From assembly GCA_019113175.1 (NCBI GenBank), contig DXHY01000076.1:1-37237 (forward strand): 37,237 bases of DNA, written 5' to 3'. A program made the position numbers and the translations under genes. The stretch is from Candidatus Eisenbergiella stercoravium. Lineage in GTDB: Bacteria; Bacillota; Clostridia; Lachnospirales; Lachnospiraceae. The notes under the pieces were generated by a model. The model was not told the origin of the DNA. It saw nothing but the letters and a program-made list of their open reading frames with translations, and did not search any database. This document shows, piece after piece, positions 3,258 to 13,045 of this stretch; the stretch's first letter is position 1; every line of letters begins with the position of its first letter.

Positions 3258-4079
3258 CTATTTCACGCCCGTATAGGCGAAAGCTTTCAGAATCTGCTTC
3301 TGTGCGATAACAAAAGCGATCAGAATCGGCACCATCATGATCAGATTTCCTGCCATAATGATATGGTTGGCTACGCCTCCGTCCACATCGCTCAATGCTG
3401 TAATTCCCACAGGAAGCGTGCGTACCGCATCGCTGGTTGTCAATACCTTGGCCCAGAAATAATCATTCCAGGTTCCGATGAAGGTCAGGAGCGCCAATGT
3501 AGCCACTGTGCTGCGGGACATGGGAAGCATGATTTTAAACATGATTTTCAGCTCCCCCGCCTTGTCCAGCCGCGCTGCTTCAATCAGCTCCTTCGGCACC
3601 TGCATGAAATTCTGCCGAAGCATGAAAATACCAAACGCGCTCGCCGCCTGCGGCAGGATCAGAGACCAGTAGGTATTAATAAGGTTCAGCCTGCTCAGGA
3701 TCAAAAAGACCGGAAGAAACACAAGCTGAGCCGGTATCATGGTGGTAGCAAGAACCGCGCCGAACAGCACACCCTTTCCCCTGAATTCATATCTGGCGAA
3801 GGCGTAGGCCGCCGGAACAACCGTGACCAGCTGCAACACCAGCACGCCAACCGTTACGATCACGCTGTTTTTCAGATAATGGAGAAAATCTATGGATTCA
3901 AACGCGGTTACAAAATTGACAAACTGGGGATTGGATACCCAGAAAACCGGCGGGGACTGAAGCGTCTGCCCCAACGTTTTGATGGACGTAAGCGCCATCC
4001 AGTAAAAGGGAACGAAAAAGATCATAAACAGTATGATGTTAATGATCCATCTCCCGGATTTTTTTGCCATTTTCTTCAT
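3258..4079 (-). CDS. ugpE: Carbohydrate/glycerol-3-phosphate ABC permease (UgpE/MalG type)
   Basis: A 273-residue inner-membrane permease with a first membrane helix at about 12-30 and some six hydrophobic segments in all. The EAA loop is visible as ELIEAARLDKAGELKIMFKIMLP, the contact site for the ATPase. Length and the KTLGQTLQSPPVFW N-terminal loop fit the MalG/UgpE group (CUT1 family). GGAGG sits 5 bases before the ATG. It lies 18 bases after ugpA and 64 bases before ugpB in the same operon. Substrate assignment rests on the context, not on this protein. Confidence 0.83.
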   Translation of the reverse strand: MKKMAKKSGRWIINIILFMIFFVPFYWMALTSIKTLGQTLQSPPVFWVSNPQFVNFVTAFESIDFLHYLKNSVIVTVGVLVLQLVTVVPAAYAFARYEFRGKGVLFGAVLATTMIPAQLVFLPVFLILSRLNLINTYWSLILPQAASAFGIFMLRQNFMQVPKELIEAARLDKAGELKIMFKIMLPMSRSTVATLALLTFIGTWNDYFWAKVLTTSDAVRTLPVGITALSDVDGGVANHIIMAGNLIMMVPILIAFVIAQKQILKAFAYTGVK

Positions 4080-4097
4080 TTCTGCCTCCGACTCCGT

Positions 4098-5069
4098 TTA
4101 TTGATAATGCACTTTTTTCTGAAGCAAGCTGAAATAGATCAATGTCATGAGACCGACAATCAGCATCAGGACTACACCCATGGCGGACGCATACCCCGTA
4201 TGGTAAAAGACGAAGCCCTGCTGGTAAAGCTCATATACCATTGTATTTGTCGCATCTGCAGGGCCTCCGGCCGTCATCAGAGATACGCATTCAAAGGTTT
4301 TAAACGAGCCGATAATTCCGGTCAGAATGAGGAAAAACAGGGTGGGGGACAGCATGGGCAGCGTAATCCGGAAAAAGATGGACACCGGCTTTGCCCGGTC
4401 CATGGCAGCCGCCTCATACAGATATTCCGGAATTCCCTGCAGAGCCGCCACAAAGATCAGCACATAGTAACCCAGGCTTTTCCACACATTCACAATCACC
4501 AGAGACAGCATCGCCACATTCGGATCTCCCAGCCAGTTGACCGGATCCACGCCGAACAGGCTCAGCACAAAGTTGAACAGCCCTCTGTCCTCGTCCATCA
4601 TCCACATCCAGATGAAGGATATGGAAACCAGTGAAACAATGTTCGGCATGAACATGACATTCTGAAGAATTCTGTTGATCCTAGTATTTCTTTTCAGATA
4701 AAGAGCAATCGCCAGGCTCAGAACAATAGTTGTCGGAACCATCATCAGCATAAACCGGAAGGTATTCCCCAACACCTTCCAGAATTCCCTGTCCGTAAAC
4801 ATGTCCAGATAATTCTTCAGGCCGATAAACTCCATGTCCGCAATCATGTTCCAGTCAAAGAAGCTGACATAAAGCATATAAAAAACGGGATAAATGACAA
4901 ACACCATAAAAATCAGCATTGCCGGAAGAATCATCAGATAGGGGAGCGTCCGGCGCAGAACCGCATTTCCCATTTTCCTTTTTCCGGCGGCCTCGCTTCT
5001 GCTTTTTCCCCGAGACAGGGGATTGACCAGCATTCCCGGTGTTTTTACCAGATTTTCAGTCGCGTTCAT
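4098..5069 (-). CDS. ugpA: Carbohydrate/glycerol-3-phosphate ABC permease (UgpA/MalF type)
   Basis: A 323-residue permease, partner of the UgpE-type protein. After a basic 35-residue N-terminus come hydrophobic helices (first about 40-62, YLMILPAMLIFMVFVIYPVF). The EAA motif is YLYEAAAMDRAKPVSIFFRITLP. The SFKTFECVSLMTAGGP stretch is typical of CUT1-family MalF/UgpA proteins. A perfect AAGGAGG lies 6 bases before the ATG. It starts 11 bases after the ATPase gene, so the two are cotranscribed. The family is clear; glycerol-3-phosphate as substrate is inferred from the operon. Confidence 0.83.
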   Translation of the reverse strand: MNATENLVKTPGMLVNPLSRGKSRSEAAGKRKMGNAVLRRTLPYLMILPAMLIFMVFVIYPVFYMLYVSFFDWNMIADMEFIGLKNYLDMFTDREFWKVLGNTFRFMLMMVPTTIVLSLAIALYLKRNTRINRILQNVMFMPNIVSLVSISFIWMWMMDEDRGLFNFVLSLFGVDPVNWLGDPNVAMLSLVIVNVWKSLGYYVLIFVAALQGIPEYLYEAAAMDRAKPVSIFFRITLPMLSPTLFFLILTGIIGSFKTFECVSLMTAGGPADATNTMVYELYQQGFVFYHTGYASAMGVVLMLIVGLMTLIYFSLLQKKVHYQ

Positions 5070-5080
5070 TTCTGCCTCCT

Positions 5081-6103
5081 TTACGCTCTCATCCGGTTTT
5101 CACTCCGGTCGAAAAAGCAGATCTCCTTCCTCGGGATCCACATCACAACATTGTCCTGATAGCGGTCATCCGTATGATAGTCTCTTGCCTGGATGCAGCC
5201 AAACGGCGTATCGATCTTATAAAGGATCTCCGCGCCGAGCATTTCTCTGGTGAGAACCCTTCCTTCTATCCGAATGCTGTCCGGTATTTCCCGAAATTCC
5301 ACATGCTCCGGCCGGAATCCTGCCCACGCCGCCCGTGCCGGAAAGTTCCACGTTGCCAGACAGTTTGCCGCCTCTATCAGATTCATGGGAGGCGTTCCGA
5401 TAAACTTTGCCGTAAACACATTTTCGGGATCCTTATAGATTTCCTCCGGGCTTCCCTGCTGCATGATCTTTCCTTCATGCATCAGTATGATGTGAGTTCC
5501 CATCGACATAGCCTCCGCCTGGTCGTGAGTCACATAAACAAATGTACTTCCCAGCTTCTGATGCAGTTCAATCAATTCTGTCCTGAGCTGCGCCCTGAGC
5601 TTTGCGTCCAAATTGGACAGCGGCTCATCCATCAGAAACACCTTCGGATTTTTCACCATGGCTCTTGCCAGAGCCACCCTCTGGCGCTGGCCGCCGGAAA
5701 GCGCGGCAGGCTTCCGGTTCATGTACTCATTCAGTCCGGTGATCTCTCCGATTTCCTGGATTCTCCGGTTCCTCTCAGCCTTCGGTATTTTCGCATTTTT
5801 CAGACCGAATTCGATATTCCCTCTTACCGTCATCGTGGGATAGATTGCATAATTCTGAAAGACCATCGCAATATCTCTCTCCCCCGGCGGCACATCCTTC
5901 ATATCCTCTCCGTCAATGGAAAGCTTTCCTCCGCTCACATCCTCCAGCCCTGCTATCATCCGCAGGGTCGTGGATTTTCCACAGCCGGACGGCCCCAACA
6001 GAATGGTAAAGCTTCCTTCTCTGATATCCAGATTCAGATCCTCAATGACCTGAACCCCTTTGTCATAAACCTTATCCACATGTTCCAGACTGATTTTGTT
6101 CAC
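5081..6103 (-). CDS. ugpC: ABC transporter ATP-binding protein (UgpC/MalK type)
   Basis: A 340-residue ATPase of the CUT1 MalK/UgpC type. Walker A GPSGCGKST is at 37-45, the Q-loop VFQNYAIYP at 81-89, the signature LSGGQRQRVALARA from 135, and Walker B VFLMDE at 155-160 followed by a D-loop NLDAKLR. The last 100 residues form the regulatory TOBE region and include RPEHVEFREIP. The start codon is GTG with AGAGGA upstream. It is the first gene of a six-gene operon. ATPases of this group can be shared between importers, so it may also serve other sugar systems (inference). Confidence 0.86.
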   Translation of the reverse strand: MNKISLEHVDKVYDKGVQVIEDLNLDIREGSFTILLGPSGCGKSTTLRMIAGLEDVSGGKLSIDGEDMKDVPPGERDIAMVFQNYAIYPTMTVRGNIEFGLKNAKIPKAERNRRIQEIGEITGLNEYMNRKPAALSGGQRQRVALARAMVKNPKVFLMDEPLSNLDAKLRAQLRTELIELHQKLGSTFVYVTHDQAEAMSMGTHIILMHEGKIMQQGSPEEIYKDPENVFTAKFIGTPPMNLIEAANCLATWNFPARAAWAGFRPEHVEFREIPDSIRIEGRVLTREMLGAEILYKIDTPFGCIQARDYHTDDRYQDNVVMWIPRKEICFFDRSENRMRA

Positions 6104-10602: not shown

Positions 10603-11346
10603 TTACAGCACCTTCGACAGAAACTCCCTCAGTCTGGGATTCTTCGGATTTTCAAAGAACTCCTTCGGCCCGCTCTCTTCCTTGATCTGCCCGTCGTCCA
10701 TGAACAGCACGCGGCTTCCGACCTCCTTTGCGAAGCCCATCTCATGGGTGACGATTACCATGGTCATGCCGTCCCTTGCCAGCTCCGTCATGACGCCCAG
10801 CACCTCTCCTACCATTTCCGGGTCCAGCGCGCTGGTGGGTTCGTCAAACAGCATCACGTCAGGATGCATGCACAGAGAGCGCACAATGGCAATTCTCTGC
10901 TTCTGCCCGCCGGAAAGCTGAGAAGGATAGGCCTTCGCCTTCTCTGCAAGGCCGACCAGCTTCAAAAGCTCCATGGCCTCCTTTTCCGCTTCCTGCCTGC
11001 TCTTCTTCAGGAGCTTTATGGGCGCCAGCGTCAGATTCTGCAGAATGGTCTTATTCGGAAACAGGTTGAAATGCTGAAACACCATACCGATATGCTGGCG
11101 GTATTTATTGATGTTCGTCCTGGGATCCGTGATATCCTGTCCCTCAAAAAGAATCTGGCCGGCAGTCGGCTCCTCCAACAGATTCAGGGAACGCAGAAAG
11201 GTGGATTTTCCCGAACCGGAAGGGCCCACGATCACGACAACCTCCCCCTGGGAGATTGTCGTGCTGATATTCTTCAATACCTCTGTTTCTCCAAAGGATT
11301 TGCAGAGATTCTTTATTTCAAATAAAATCTGTCCGTCAGCGCTCAC
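10603..11346 (-). CDS. glnQ: Polar amino-acid ABC transporter ATP-binding protein (GlnQ type)
   Basis: A 247-residue ATPase powering polar amino-acid uptake. Walker [10 protein letters not shown], the Q-loop [13 protein letters not shown], signature [15 protein letters not shown], Walker [15 protein letters not shown] and the H-loop [11 protein letters not shown] are all present. I choose a GTG start at 11346, which gives the usual family length and has a perfect AAGGAGG 10 bases upstream inside the permease gene. A longer frame would add 14 residues absent from relatives. It overlaps the permease end by 11 bases (coupled). Confidence 0.92.
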
Positions 11347-12087
11347 TGGTACGCAGCCTCCTTTCCAGTCTGGATACTCCTGCCGCAAGCAGGGATACGA
11401 TCGCCAGATAAATCAGTGCAACCGCGATCAGCGGCATGAAGGCCGAATAGGTCTGGCTTCGGATGACGTTTCCTCCATGCGTCAGATCCGTCAAAGCTAT
11501 GTAACCGCTGATGGAAGTTTCCTTCAGCAGAACGATAATCTCGTTTCCCAGAGCGGGAAGCACATTTTTAAACGCCTGAGGAAGGATAATATGCCACATC
11601 GTGGCCGGGTATCCCAGTCCCAGACTTCTTCCGGCTTCAAACTGACCGATATCGATGGCCATGATACCGGAACGGACGATCTCCGCCACATAAGCCCCGG
11701 AGTTAATGCCGAAGGCCAGGATCGCCACGATCCGCTTGTCAATATTGACGCTTCCGAAGATGACATAGTACATGATCAGCAGCTGAATCATGGTGGGCGT
11801 TCCGCGGATCACCGTCAGATAGATCTGGCAGATCAGGTCCACCAGCTTAAACAGATAATAGCCCGCCATTTTCCAGAGCCAGACTCCCTTCTCCTTCATG
11901 TGCGGAGGCTTCCTGATTCCTCCCCGCACCGCGCTGGAACGAACGATAGCCGCCAGAAACCCCAGCACAAGCCCAAGGATAACCGCAAAAAAGTGATGAG
12001 CAGCGTCGTCTTCAAACCGTTCGTCAGATACTGCCATCTGTCATCCTTGATAAAATTGAGATAAAACTGATCCTTAAAATTCTGCAT
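11336..12087 (-). CDS. Polar amino-acid ABC permease (HisM/GlnP type), reading frame broken near the N-terminus
   Basis: The N-terminus [18 protein letters not shown] starts at 12087 after GAGG and reads through ITF. The family's continuation, [19 protein letters not shown], is in the -1 frame down to 11336. The break is at a run of six T (11992-11987) reading ACT-TTT-TTG; one more T, or a -1 slip on T_TTT_TTG, restores a 250-residue permease. Without it translation stops at 11896. Downstream are the EAA loop ([25 protein letters not shown]) and a membrane core. About 20 extra residues ([20 protein letters not shown]) are inserted after the first helix. Sequencing error, true mutation or programmed slippage cannot be told apart here. 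Confidence 0.8.
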
Positions 12088-12151
12088 TACATCCTCTCTT
12101 TCCGCGGCCAATATCCCGGACTCCGCCTGACAGCAGGTCTTTCTTTATGAT

Positions 12152-12182
12152 AAAAAAGACTCCAAAGCCTTGCTTCGGAGCC
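12152..12182 (-). terminator. Terminator-like hairpin inside the amino-acid ABC operon
   Basis: GGCTCCGAAGC and GCTTTGGAGTC (12182-12172 and 12168-12158) pair over 11 bp including two G-U pairs. Six U follow on the minus strand. It stands between the binding-protein gene and the permease gene. Partial termination here would give more binding protein than membrane components, a common arrangement. Confidence 0.75.
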
Positions 12183-12199: not shown

Positions 12200-13045
12200 T
12201 TACTCTTTTACGATGATAACCTGCTTGGAGGTCGCATAGGAATCGGTGAAGTCCACGCTCTGCTGACGGTCCTCTGTCACCGTGATTCCCGCCACGCCTA
12301 TGTCGGCCTTGCCGGACTGAATGGCATTGATAATGGCATCGAATTCCATATCCTCAATCACCAGATCATATCCCAGAACATCACATACCGCCTGGGCCAT
12401 ATCCGCATCAATTCCAACGATCTTATCCCCGTCATAATATTCATAGGGTTCAAAATAAGCATTGGTCGCCATAACGAGCGTTCCATTGGAACGGTCCACA
12501 TCCGCAGGTGACTCATAAGGGGACTGGCCCTTCGTATCATCGCCGATGTAGTTGTTCACGATGCTCTCCAGCGTTCCATCCTCTTTCAGCTGAGCAAGCG
12601 CGCCGTTGATCGCCGTTACCAGCTCATCGTTTCCCTTTGCCACACAGATTGCATAAGACTCTTCCGCAAAAGGCTCATCCAGAATCTTAAGTCCTTCTGT
12701 ATTCGCCACAAAGGCCTCGGCAGGCTGCTCATCGATGATCACGCAGTCCACCTTGCCCTGAAGCAGTGCCTGAACCGCATCGTTTCCCTTGTTGAAACGC
12801 TCGATCGTGGAGCCCTCTTCTTCATAATCGGATGCATAAATATCACCCGTTGTTCCCAGCTGAACGCCGATGGTCTTTCCCGGAAGATCATCGATTCCGG
12901 TAACTGCGCTTCCCGTGGAAGCCGCTTCTGTTGCTGCCGTATCCGTTGCCGCCGTATCCGTTGCCGCTGTCTGTGTGCTGCTTCCGCATGCTGCCAGAGA
13001 GATGGTCATGCATACGGCAAGCGCTGCTGCCAATATCTTTTTCAT
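12200..13045 (-). CDS. Amino-acid-binding lipoprotein (SBP family 3) with lobes in circularly permuted order
   Basis: A 281-residue lipoprotein: signal sequence, lipobox LAAC (Cys20) and a Thr/Ala/Asp linker with a 15-bp tandem repeat (22-48). In family 3 proteins the first lobe (LVMATNA..PPYEYY..GIDVDMA..VDFTD..QVIIVK) comes first and the second (DDLKGKTIGVQLGTTGD...) follows. Here DDLPGKTIGVQLGTTGDIYASDY starts at 52, the usual C-terminal helix LKEDGTLESIVNNYIGDD ends at 170, and only then does NGTLVMATNAYFEPYEYY (188) begin. The protein ends exactly at QVIIVKE. The cut is at the hinge between lobes. The start at 13045 follows AGGAGG. It is the first gene of the operon. Confidence 0.9.
   Translation of the reverse strand: MKKILAAALAVCMTISLAACGSSTQTAATDTAATDTAATEAASTGSAVTGIDDLPGKTIGVQLGTTGDIYASDYEEEGSTIERFNKGNDAVQALLQGKVDCVIIDEQPAEAFVANTEGLKILDEPFAEESYAICVAKGNDELVTAINGALAQLKEDGTLESIVNNYIGDDTKGQSPYESPADVDRSNGTLVMATNAYFEPYEYYDGDKIVGIDADMAQAVCDVLGYDLVIEDMEFDAIINAIQSGKADIGVAGITVTEDRQQSVDFTDSYATSKQVIIVKE
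12936..12965 (-). repeat. Two perfect 15-bp tandem repeats in the binding-protein linker
   Basis: The unit (plus strand GCCGTATCCGTTGCC) occurs twice with no gap and encodes the repeated Ala-Thr-Asp-Thr-Ala linker after the lipobox. A degenerate third copy flanks it. Confidence 0.8.

Follow-up and report, generated by a model that had tools for sequence, protein, structure and literature searches.

The window analysed here, a stretch of 37,237 nucleotides from Candidatus Eisenbergiella stercoravium (contig DXHY01000076.1), encodes on its minus strand, at 12200-13045, an amino-acid-binding lipoprotein of 281 residues whose two lobes stand in swapped order; the plus strand of this open reading frame (ORF) encodes no such protein. 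We name the pieces by their canonical order: A is the first part, lobe 1, and B1 and B2 together form lobe 2, B2 carrying the hinge strand and the last helices. It is very likely that this protein serves a three-gene type I ATP-binding cassette (ABC) importer of a polar amino acid as its binding lipoprotein and that it is a family 3 (GlnH-like) protein that has undergone natural circular permutation, with the duplication origin and the manner of working proposed below. The gene is laid out as follows:

12200..13045, minus strand: permuted amino-acid-binding lipoprotein gene, 281 residues, in the order signal - spacer - B1 - B2 - linker - A (translation, profile, PDB alignments, conserved order)
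12986..13045, minus strand: signal peptide with lipobox LAAC and Cys20, residues 1-20 (translation, lipobox rule)
12908..12985, minus strand: spacer from the lipid anchor to lobe 2, residues 21-46 (model confidence, repeat scan)
12692..12907, minus strand: piece B1, first part of lobe 2, residues 47-118, whose canonical place is behind A (PDB sequence and structure matches)
12536..12691, minus strand: piece B2, the remaining lobe 2 with its hinge strand plus the usual C-terminal helices, residues 119-170 (ORF comparison, model)
12488..12535, minus strand: linker joining the old C-terminus to the old N-terminus, residues 171-186 (alignment of 77 sequences, model)
12203..12487, minus strand: piece A, lobe 1, normally N-terminal, residues 187-281, ending at the hinge strand (profile, PDB sequence, structure)

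A 15-base tandem repeat of 2.5 copies (12930-12967) codes for part of the spacer behind the lipid anchor, and spacer length differs between relatives.

That the halves of a family 3 protein are in reversed order had been claimed in a sequence-only reading of the window, and three kinds of comparison agree with it: (i), the family profile PF00497 matches the protein with 118.9 bits (curated cut-off 26.4) in two separate stretches, profile positions 1-91 of 132 falling on residues 190-280. (ii), phmmer against the PDB aligned residues 9-103 of AncQR (4zv1) with window residues 187-280 (75.7 bits, i-Evalue 4e-20) and residues 108-232 with window residues 47-168 (78.0 bits, 8e-21), and the entries 6svf and 4prs gave the same swapped blocks. 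(iii), in an AlphaFold2 model built on an alignment of 77 sequences in B1-B2-A order, isolated domain 2 of the Thermotoga maritima arginine-binding protein (TmArgBP) corresponds to residues 45-128 and domain 1 to residues 185-276. On these scores, chance can be excluded as the source of the swapped match. The usual lobe order, which the sequence-only reading had named as the observation that would count against it, was seen neither in the profile alignment nor in the structure comparison, and the borders it had given (lobe 2 starting near residue 52 and lobe 1 at 188, with the linker at about 171-187) are correct within a few residues. By its PF00497 score the protein belongs to family 3, but the collinear order lobe 1 - lobe 2 - C-terminal helix is not found; because the order is lobe 2 - helix - linker - lobe 1, we call it a permuted variant and not an ordinary member. 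The features of a circular permutation are all present: the old termini are joined, the new termini lie elsewhere, and both parts come from one ancestor.

The model has a mean predicted local distance difference test score (pLDDT) of 87.2 and a predicted template modelling score of 0.76; confidence is low over the signal and most of the spacer (pLDDT below 50 for residues 19-42). In the linker, by contrast, the covering ten-residue blocks reach mean pLDDT values of 92 and 97, G173 is invariant, and P176, Y177 and P180 occur in at least 90% of the 77 sequences. Being both conserved and confidently modelled, the linker looks like a built element and less like a loose tether. G253, T255, R260 and D105 are invariant in the same alignment, and we tentatively take them, as matched by eye, to be the counterparts of the pocket residues G68, T70, R75 and D157 of GlnH. 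In the model, strand 127-136 runs towards helix 140-155 and A closes with strand 271-280; from the family topology, the former is presumably the sole lobe-to-lobe crossing and the latter lies at the severed one.

Downstream of the binding-protein gene lie the two other genes of the importer:

11336..12087, minus strand: GlnP-type permease gene, its start set by alignment to relatives; a single ORF covers 11336-12037 only
10603..11388, minus strand: GlnQ-type ATPase gene, called as an ORF with a TTG start, the true start possibly further in (profile searches)

Both partners score above the Pfam cut-offs for a polar-amino-acid permease and its ATPase, and their best NCBIfam models are GlnP and GlnQ, each with a score below the curated cut-off. 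The permease frame shifts near 11987-11994 (minus strand), where a one-base length difference beside a homopolymer separates it from L001, L003, L004, L005 and L062; its first approximately 30 residues are out of frame with the remainder, relatives carry intact copies, and from the sequence a draft error and a broken gene cannot be told apart. Between the binding protein and the permease, just 3' of the stop codon (12150-12182, minus strand), the sequence GGCTCCGAAGC-AAGGC-TTTGGAGTC-TTTTTT resembles a terminator-like hairpin, which is absent from the listing of a terminator scan. As to a riboswitch or T-box that could hint at the ligand, Rfam at gathering scores gave only two tRNAs in the window.

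Three circular orders of one importer gene

The window order is conserved. The GTDB contig collection yielded 218 matching stretches, the 80 best of which (L001-L080) were kept, and a B1-B2-A ORF is present in 80/80 of these; a complete genome (AP025576.1) is among them, as is Eisenbergiella tayi DSM 26961. Since these loci were picked by similarity, the count shows conservation and says nothing on frequency. A permease follows within 3.5 kb downstream in 113/115 B1-B2-A ORFs; the figure is 28/29 for A-B1-B2 and 28/29 for B2-A-B1 ORFs (some genomes are counted twice).

In Clostridia, the gene exists in three circular orders: A-B1-B2 (canonical), B1-B2-A (the window) and B2-A-B1 (cut within lobe 2). 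A survey of 150 genomes of the family, the window's own among them, gave matches in 86 at a threshold of 1e-30. A collinear B1-B2-A match was found in 32 genomes (11 were read, 11/11 in that order), a B2-A-B1 pattern in 14 (14/14 confirmed on reading) and the usual-order pattern in 40, all of which were read, 39 being A-B1-B2 in a single ORF. One canonical-order copy (L289, genome G140) has a frame change between B1 and B2, leaving an ORF of 201 residues. None of the 150 genomes held two orders at 1e-30, weaker copies not having been sought. The same three patterns recur across many families of the class (91/291 genomes with a match at 1e-28), and of the 14/299 genomes that match in the phylum at 1e-26, G516 and G570, both outside the class, have the B-A order. 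Among plasmid records, 607 match, and the matches in the 25 listed are all in two pieces, as canonical proteins give. Without repeat fetches, the domain set comprises 100 single B1-B2-A, 8 permease-fused, 29 canonical (the distant paralogues L039 and L083 among them) and 24 B2-A-B1 domains, and 13 domains of tandem proteins.

The permuted domain is also found in fusions and in multiple copies. A B1-B2-A domain is fused to the permease in L080, L107, L109, L144, L186 and L187, and also in L135 and L136, where B2 did not reach the score limit. In L131, L134 and L138, the permease is preceded by two or three permuted domains, and L137 is a canonical A-B-A-B-permease. An origin by duplication needs duplicates and fusions of this kind to start from. 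In L131 (2203-5190), three permuted domains in a row and the permease make up a protein of 995 residues, and in L106 (4106-7537, 1143 residues) and L133 (1260-4715, 1151 residues) two permuted domains, permease and ATPase form the whole importer as a single chain. L110 carries two adjacent permuted binding-protein genes (3936-4724 and 4896-5687), the first with the longer branch, followed by one permease and one ATPase. In L132 (3683-5530, 615 residues), a permuted domain is recognised at the C-terminal end only (382-612), and no permease was found behind it.

Proposed origin and working of the permuted forms

The evolutionary history of the three orders was examined on trees of the binding protein (94 rows; 23 of 117 dropped, namely 11 domains of permuted and 2 of canonical tandems, 2 outgroups, and 8 rows that were distant or on long branches) and of the permease-ATPase pair (86 rows; 12 of 98 dropped), into which only about a quarter of loci L001-L080 entered, to limit near-copies. 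The orders are scattered on both trees, parsimony requiring 7 changes on the 94-row binding-protein tree and 13 and 11 on the 86-row and 98-row partner trees. These trees come from quick searches with short and partly long-branched rows, and earlier trees were already known when the groups were tested; within these limits, the tests reject a single clade for B2-A-B1 (binding-protein tree, p 0.004; permease-ATPase tree, p 1e-12) and for the canonical order (p 0.0005, binding-protein tree). For B1-B2-A, the binding-protein tree is compatible with a single clade (p 0.615, the constrained tree being even better), and on the permease-ATPase tree the outcome is marginal (p 0.042). Given the outcome of these tests, repeated origins are the most likely history of the B2-A-B1 order, and the window order perhaps had a single origin. 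Three linker types, told apart by eye, occur among the B2-A-B1 proteins and fit a repeated origin.

A readable trace of how an order changes comes from genus g210, in which 85 genomes were searched with a canonical protein. In 57/85 the gene is collinear and canonical (one is shortened; 38 of the 57 were read, all canonical), 22 match only A-B1 inside a full-length ORF (22/22 B2-A-B1 on reading), 4 match weakly and 2 not at all. Once reordered, the B2-A-B1 protein of L221 is 87.6% identical to the canonical protein of L246. The canonical L245 has the signal MKTLKRIVAGILSTALLLGMTSC, then a leader ending AFTTIESGKLIMATNA, the final residues of which already belong to A, and the C-terminus KYIPAEG; L221 has a like signal, a short spacer, B2 ending KYIPVEG, a linker ending EFTTIESGKLIMATNA, the remaining A, and B1 ending AKAFVAAANK. 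To judge from these sequences, the L221 linker resembles the former C-terminus followed by the former leader from behind the lipobox, which is the expected leftover of a tandem duplication that lost its second signal together with the leader-A-B1 of the first copy and the B2 of the last. Outside the genes, tblastn with the three pieces revealed no remnants of the lost parts in 40 loci (L220-L259), giving two insignificant hits (E 0.44 and 0.73). On the g210 binding-protein tree, the 22 B2-A-B1 genes form one clade (94/99) beside the canonical L245/L246; on the permease-ATPase tree, L245/L246 lie inside the B2-A-B1 clade, whose inner forks are weakly supported (80/57, 84/87) under a node of 99/94. 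Because the two trees disagree on L245/L246, a reversion to the canonical order is possible in this genus, and gene replacement explains the conflict equally well.

We propose that the window gene goes back to a tandem gene duplication, or an in-frame tandem fusion, after which the first A and the last B1-B2 were lost while the signal peptide was kept in front. The old C-terminus would thereby meet the start of lobe 1, and the new ends would arise at the first hinge crossing. A cut at the hinge with the old termini fused by a short linker is what the sequence-only reading had suggested, and the order in the 80 loci, the shared relatives of both halves (see below), the confident model of the folded part and the lobe-wise structure matches speak for it. 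The lobes would still build one ligand cleft and close on the amino acid, and the closed form would dock onto the permease dimer; since the operon holds one permease, the latter should work as a homodimer. In the window form, the lipid anchor would pull on lobe 2, and the lobes would be tied by one covalent hinge crossing where two are usual, because A ends at its hinge strand. In the B2-A-B1 form, cut within lobe 2, both crossings would be kept. From this anatomy, we expect that ligand binding is kept in the window form and that hinge motion or tether geometry is altered.

Several observations weigh against this proposal. Full-length sequential matches of the model are poor (TMq at most 0.46 among the 50 Foldseek matches listed); such low whole-protein scores are to be expected when a sequential aligner meets a permuted protein, and they give no positive proof of a closed two-lobe shape. 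No direct living intermediate, that is A-B1-B2-A-B1-B2 with this linker and the second signal lost, was seen for the window lineage, and by eye the window linker has no clear match to a canonical leader.

Other explanations must be considered. The protein could be what remains of a tandem fusion like GlnPQ, excised from a double domain so as to keep the rear half of one copy and the front half of its successor: the SBD1-SBD2 tandem of GlnPQ heads the Foldseek matches and stands second among the PDB sequence matches, the sequence match spans the domain junction, and both fused (B-A)n-permease proteins and a canonical A-B-A-B-permease exist. We consider this unlikely, the window protein being a separate lipoprotein gene nearest to single-domain canonical proteins (approximately 60-70% identity for each half), and the one point that separates it from the account proposed above is whether a fusion of the duplicate to the permease came first. 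The same relatives bear on the idea of a chimera of two different neighbouring binding-protein genes, or of an assembly error, which the sequence-only reading had itself raised as an objection and to which adjacent gene pairs such as that of L110 lend some plausibility. When the A and B parts are each compared with 51 proteins of canonical or B2-A-B1 order, their identities are correlated (Spearman 0.80), and the canonical L091-L094 stand at or near the top of both lists; sharing their nearest relatives, the two parts exclude a chimera of paralogues for practical purposes, and with the same order at all 80 loci, a complete genome included, we reject this explanation, to which we leave next to no probability.

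A lobe-swapped dimer, in which lobe 2 finds its lobe 1 partner on a second chain, would be allowed by a single crossing and the linker, and the cut A-to-B crossing may well loosen the tie between the lobes. The linker is short, conserved and confidently modelled, which suits the joining of termini in one chain, and single-chain fusions to the permease exist; such a dimer would therefore come as a considerable surprise. Beyond the permutation of the window protein itself, it is tempting to speculate that the binding protein of one importer switches repeatedly among the three orders by routine tandem duplication and trimming, perhaps also back, and that the order is no accident and tunes the anchor point and the stiffness of the hinge. 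We offer this broader view tentatively and regard it as doubtful.

Relation to known binding proteins

Both lobe sequences, the lipoprotein form and the GlnP- and GlnQ-type partners liken the window protein to GlnH/ArtJ/HisJ-type family 3 proteins (PF00497), which have the order A-B1-B2, whereas the window protein is B1-B2-A, ends at the hinge and would have one crossing. The same domain family provides the tandem SBD1-SBD2 permease fusion of GlnPQ (6h30), whose domain junction aligns with the window protein; its order is A-B-A-B, as read from the alignment, while the Clostridial fusions described here are B-A-B-A(-B-A)-permease(-ATPase).

Natural permutation is already known in other binding proteins. 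According to the excerpted text of PMC4990184, TpMglB-2 (Tp0684) of Treponema pallidum ('type Ic / cluster Bc') is a naturally permuted sugar-binding lipoprotein of an ABC importer; its structure has been solved, it binds its sugar and changes shape, it has homologues in Gram-positive gut bacteria, and its authors name anchoring as a possible reason for the permutation. That protein differs from ours in having a sugar-binding type I/cluster B fold, in gaining a hinge crossing by the permutation and in one permuted order being described in that excerpt. The sequence matches of the window protein are to family 3 amino-acid-binding proteins and not to the type I/cluster B sugar-binding fold. Permutation among bilobed binding proteins was also found by structure search in the glycine-betaine-binding proteins OpuAC/ProX, the pairs being less than 24% identical in the excerpted account (PMC2395249), whereas versions of a single operon gene are here up to 88% identical within a genus. 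In our searches of the openly licensed literature, we recognised no report of a natural permutation of a family 3 binding protein or of several circular orders of one gene; as far as our literature searches reach, the family 3 variant is new.

These findings carry a warning for annotation, since profile searches name the permuted proteins correctly yet hide the rearrangement. Natural permutants are usually inferred between remote relatives, so that their origin and effects are hard to test. In g210, the occurrence of one gene in different orders, two versions of it sharing 88% identity and one showing a legible trace of duplication, allows folding, hinge motion, ligand affinity and docking to be compared.
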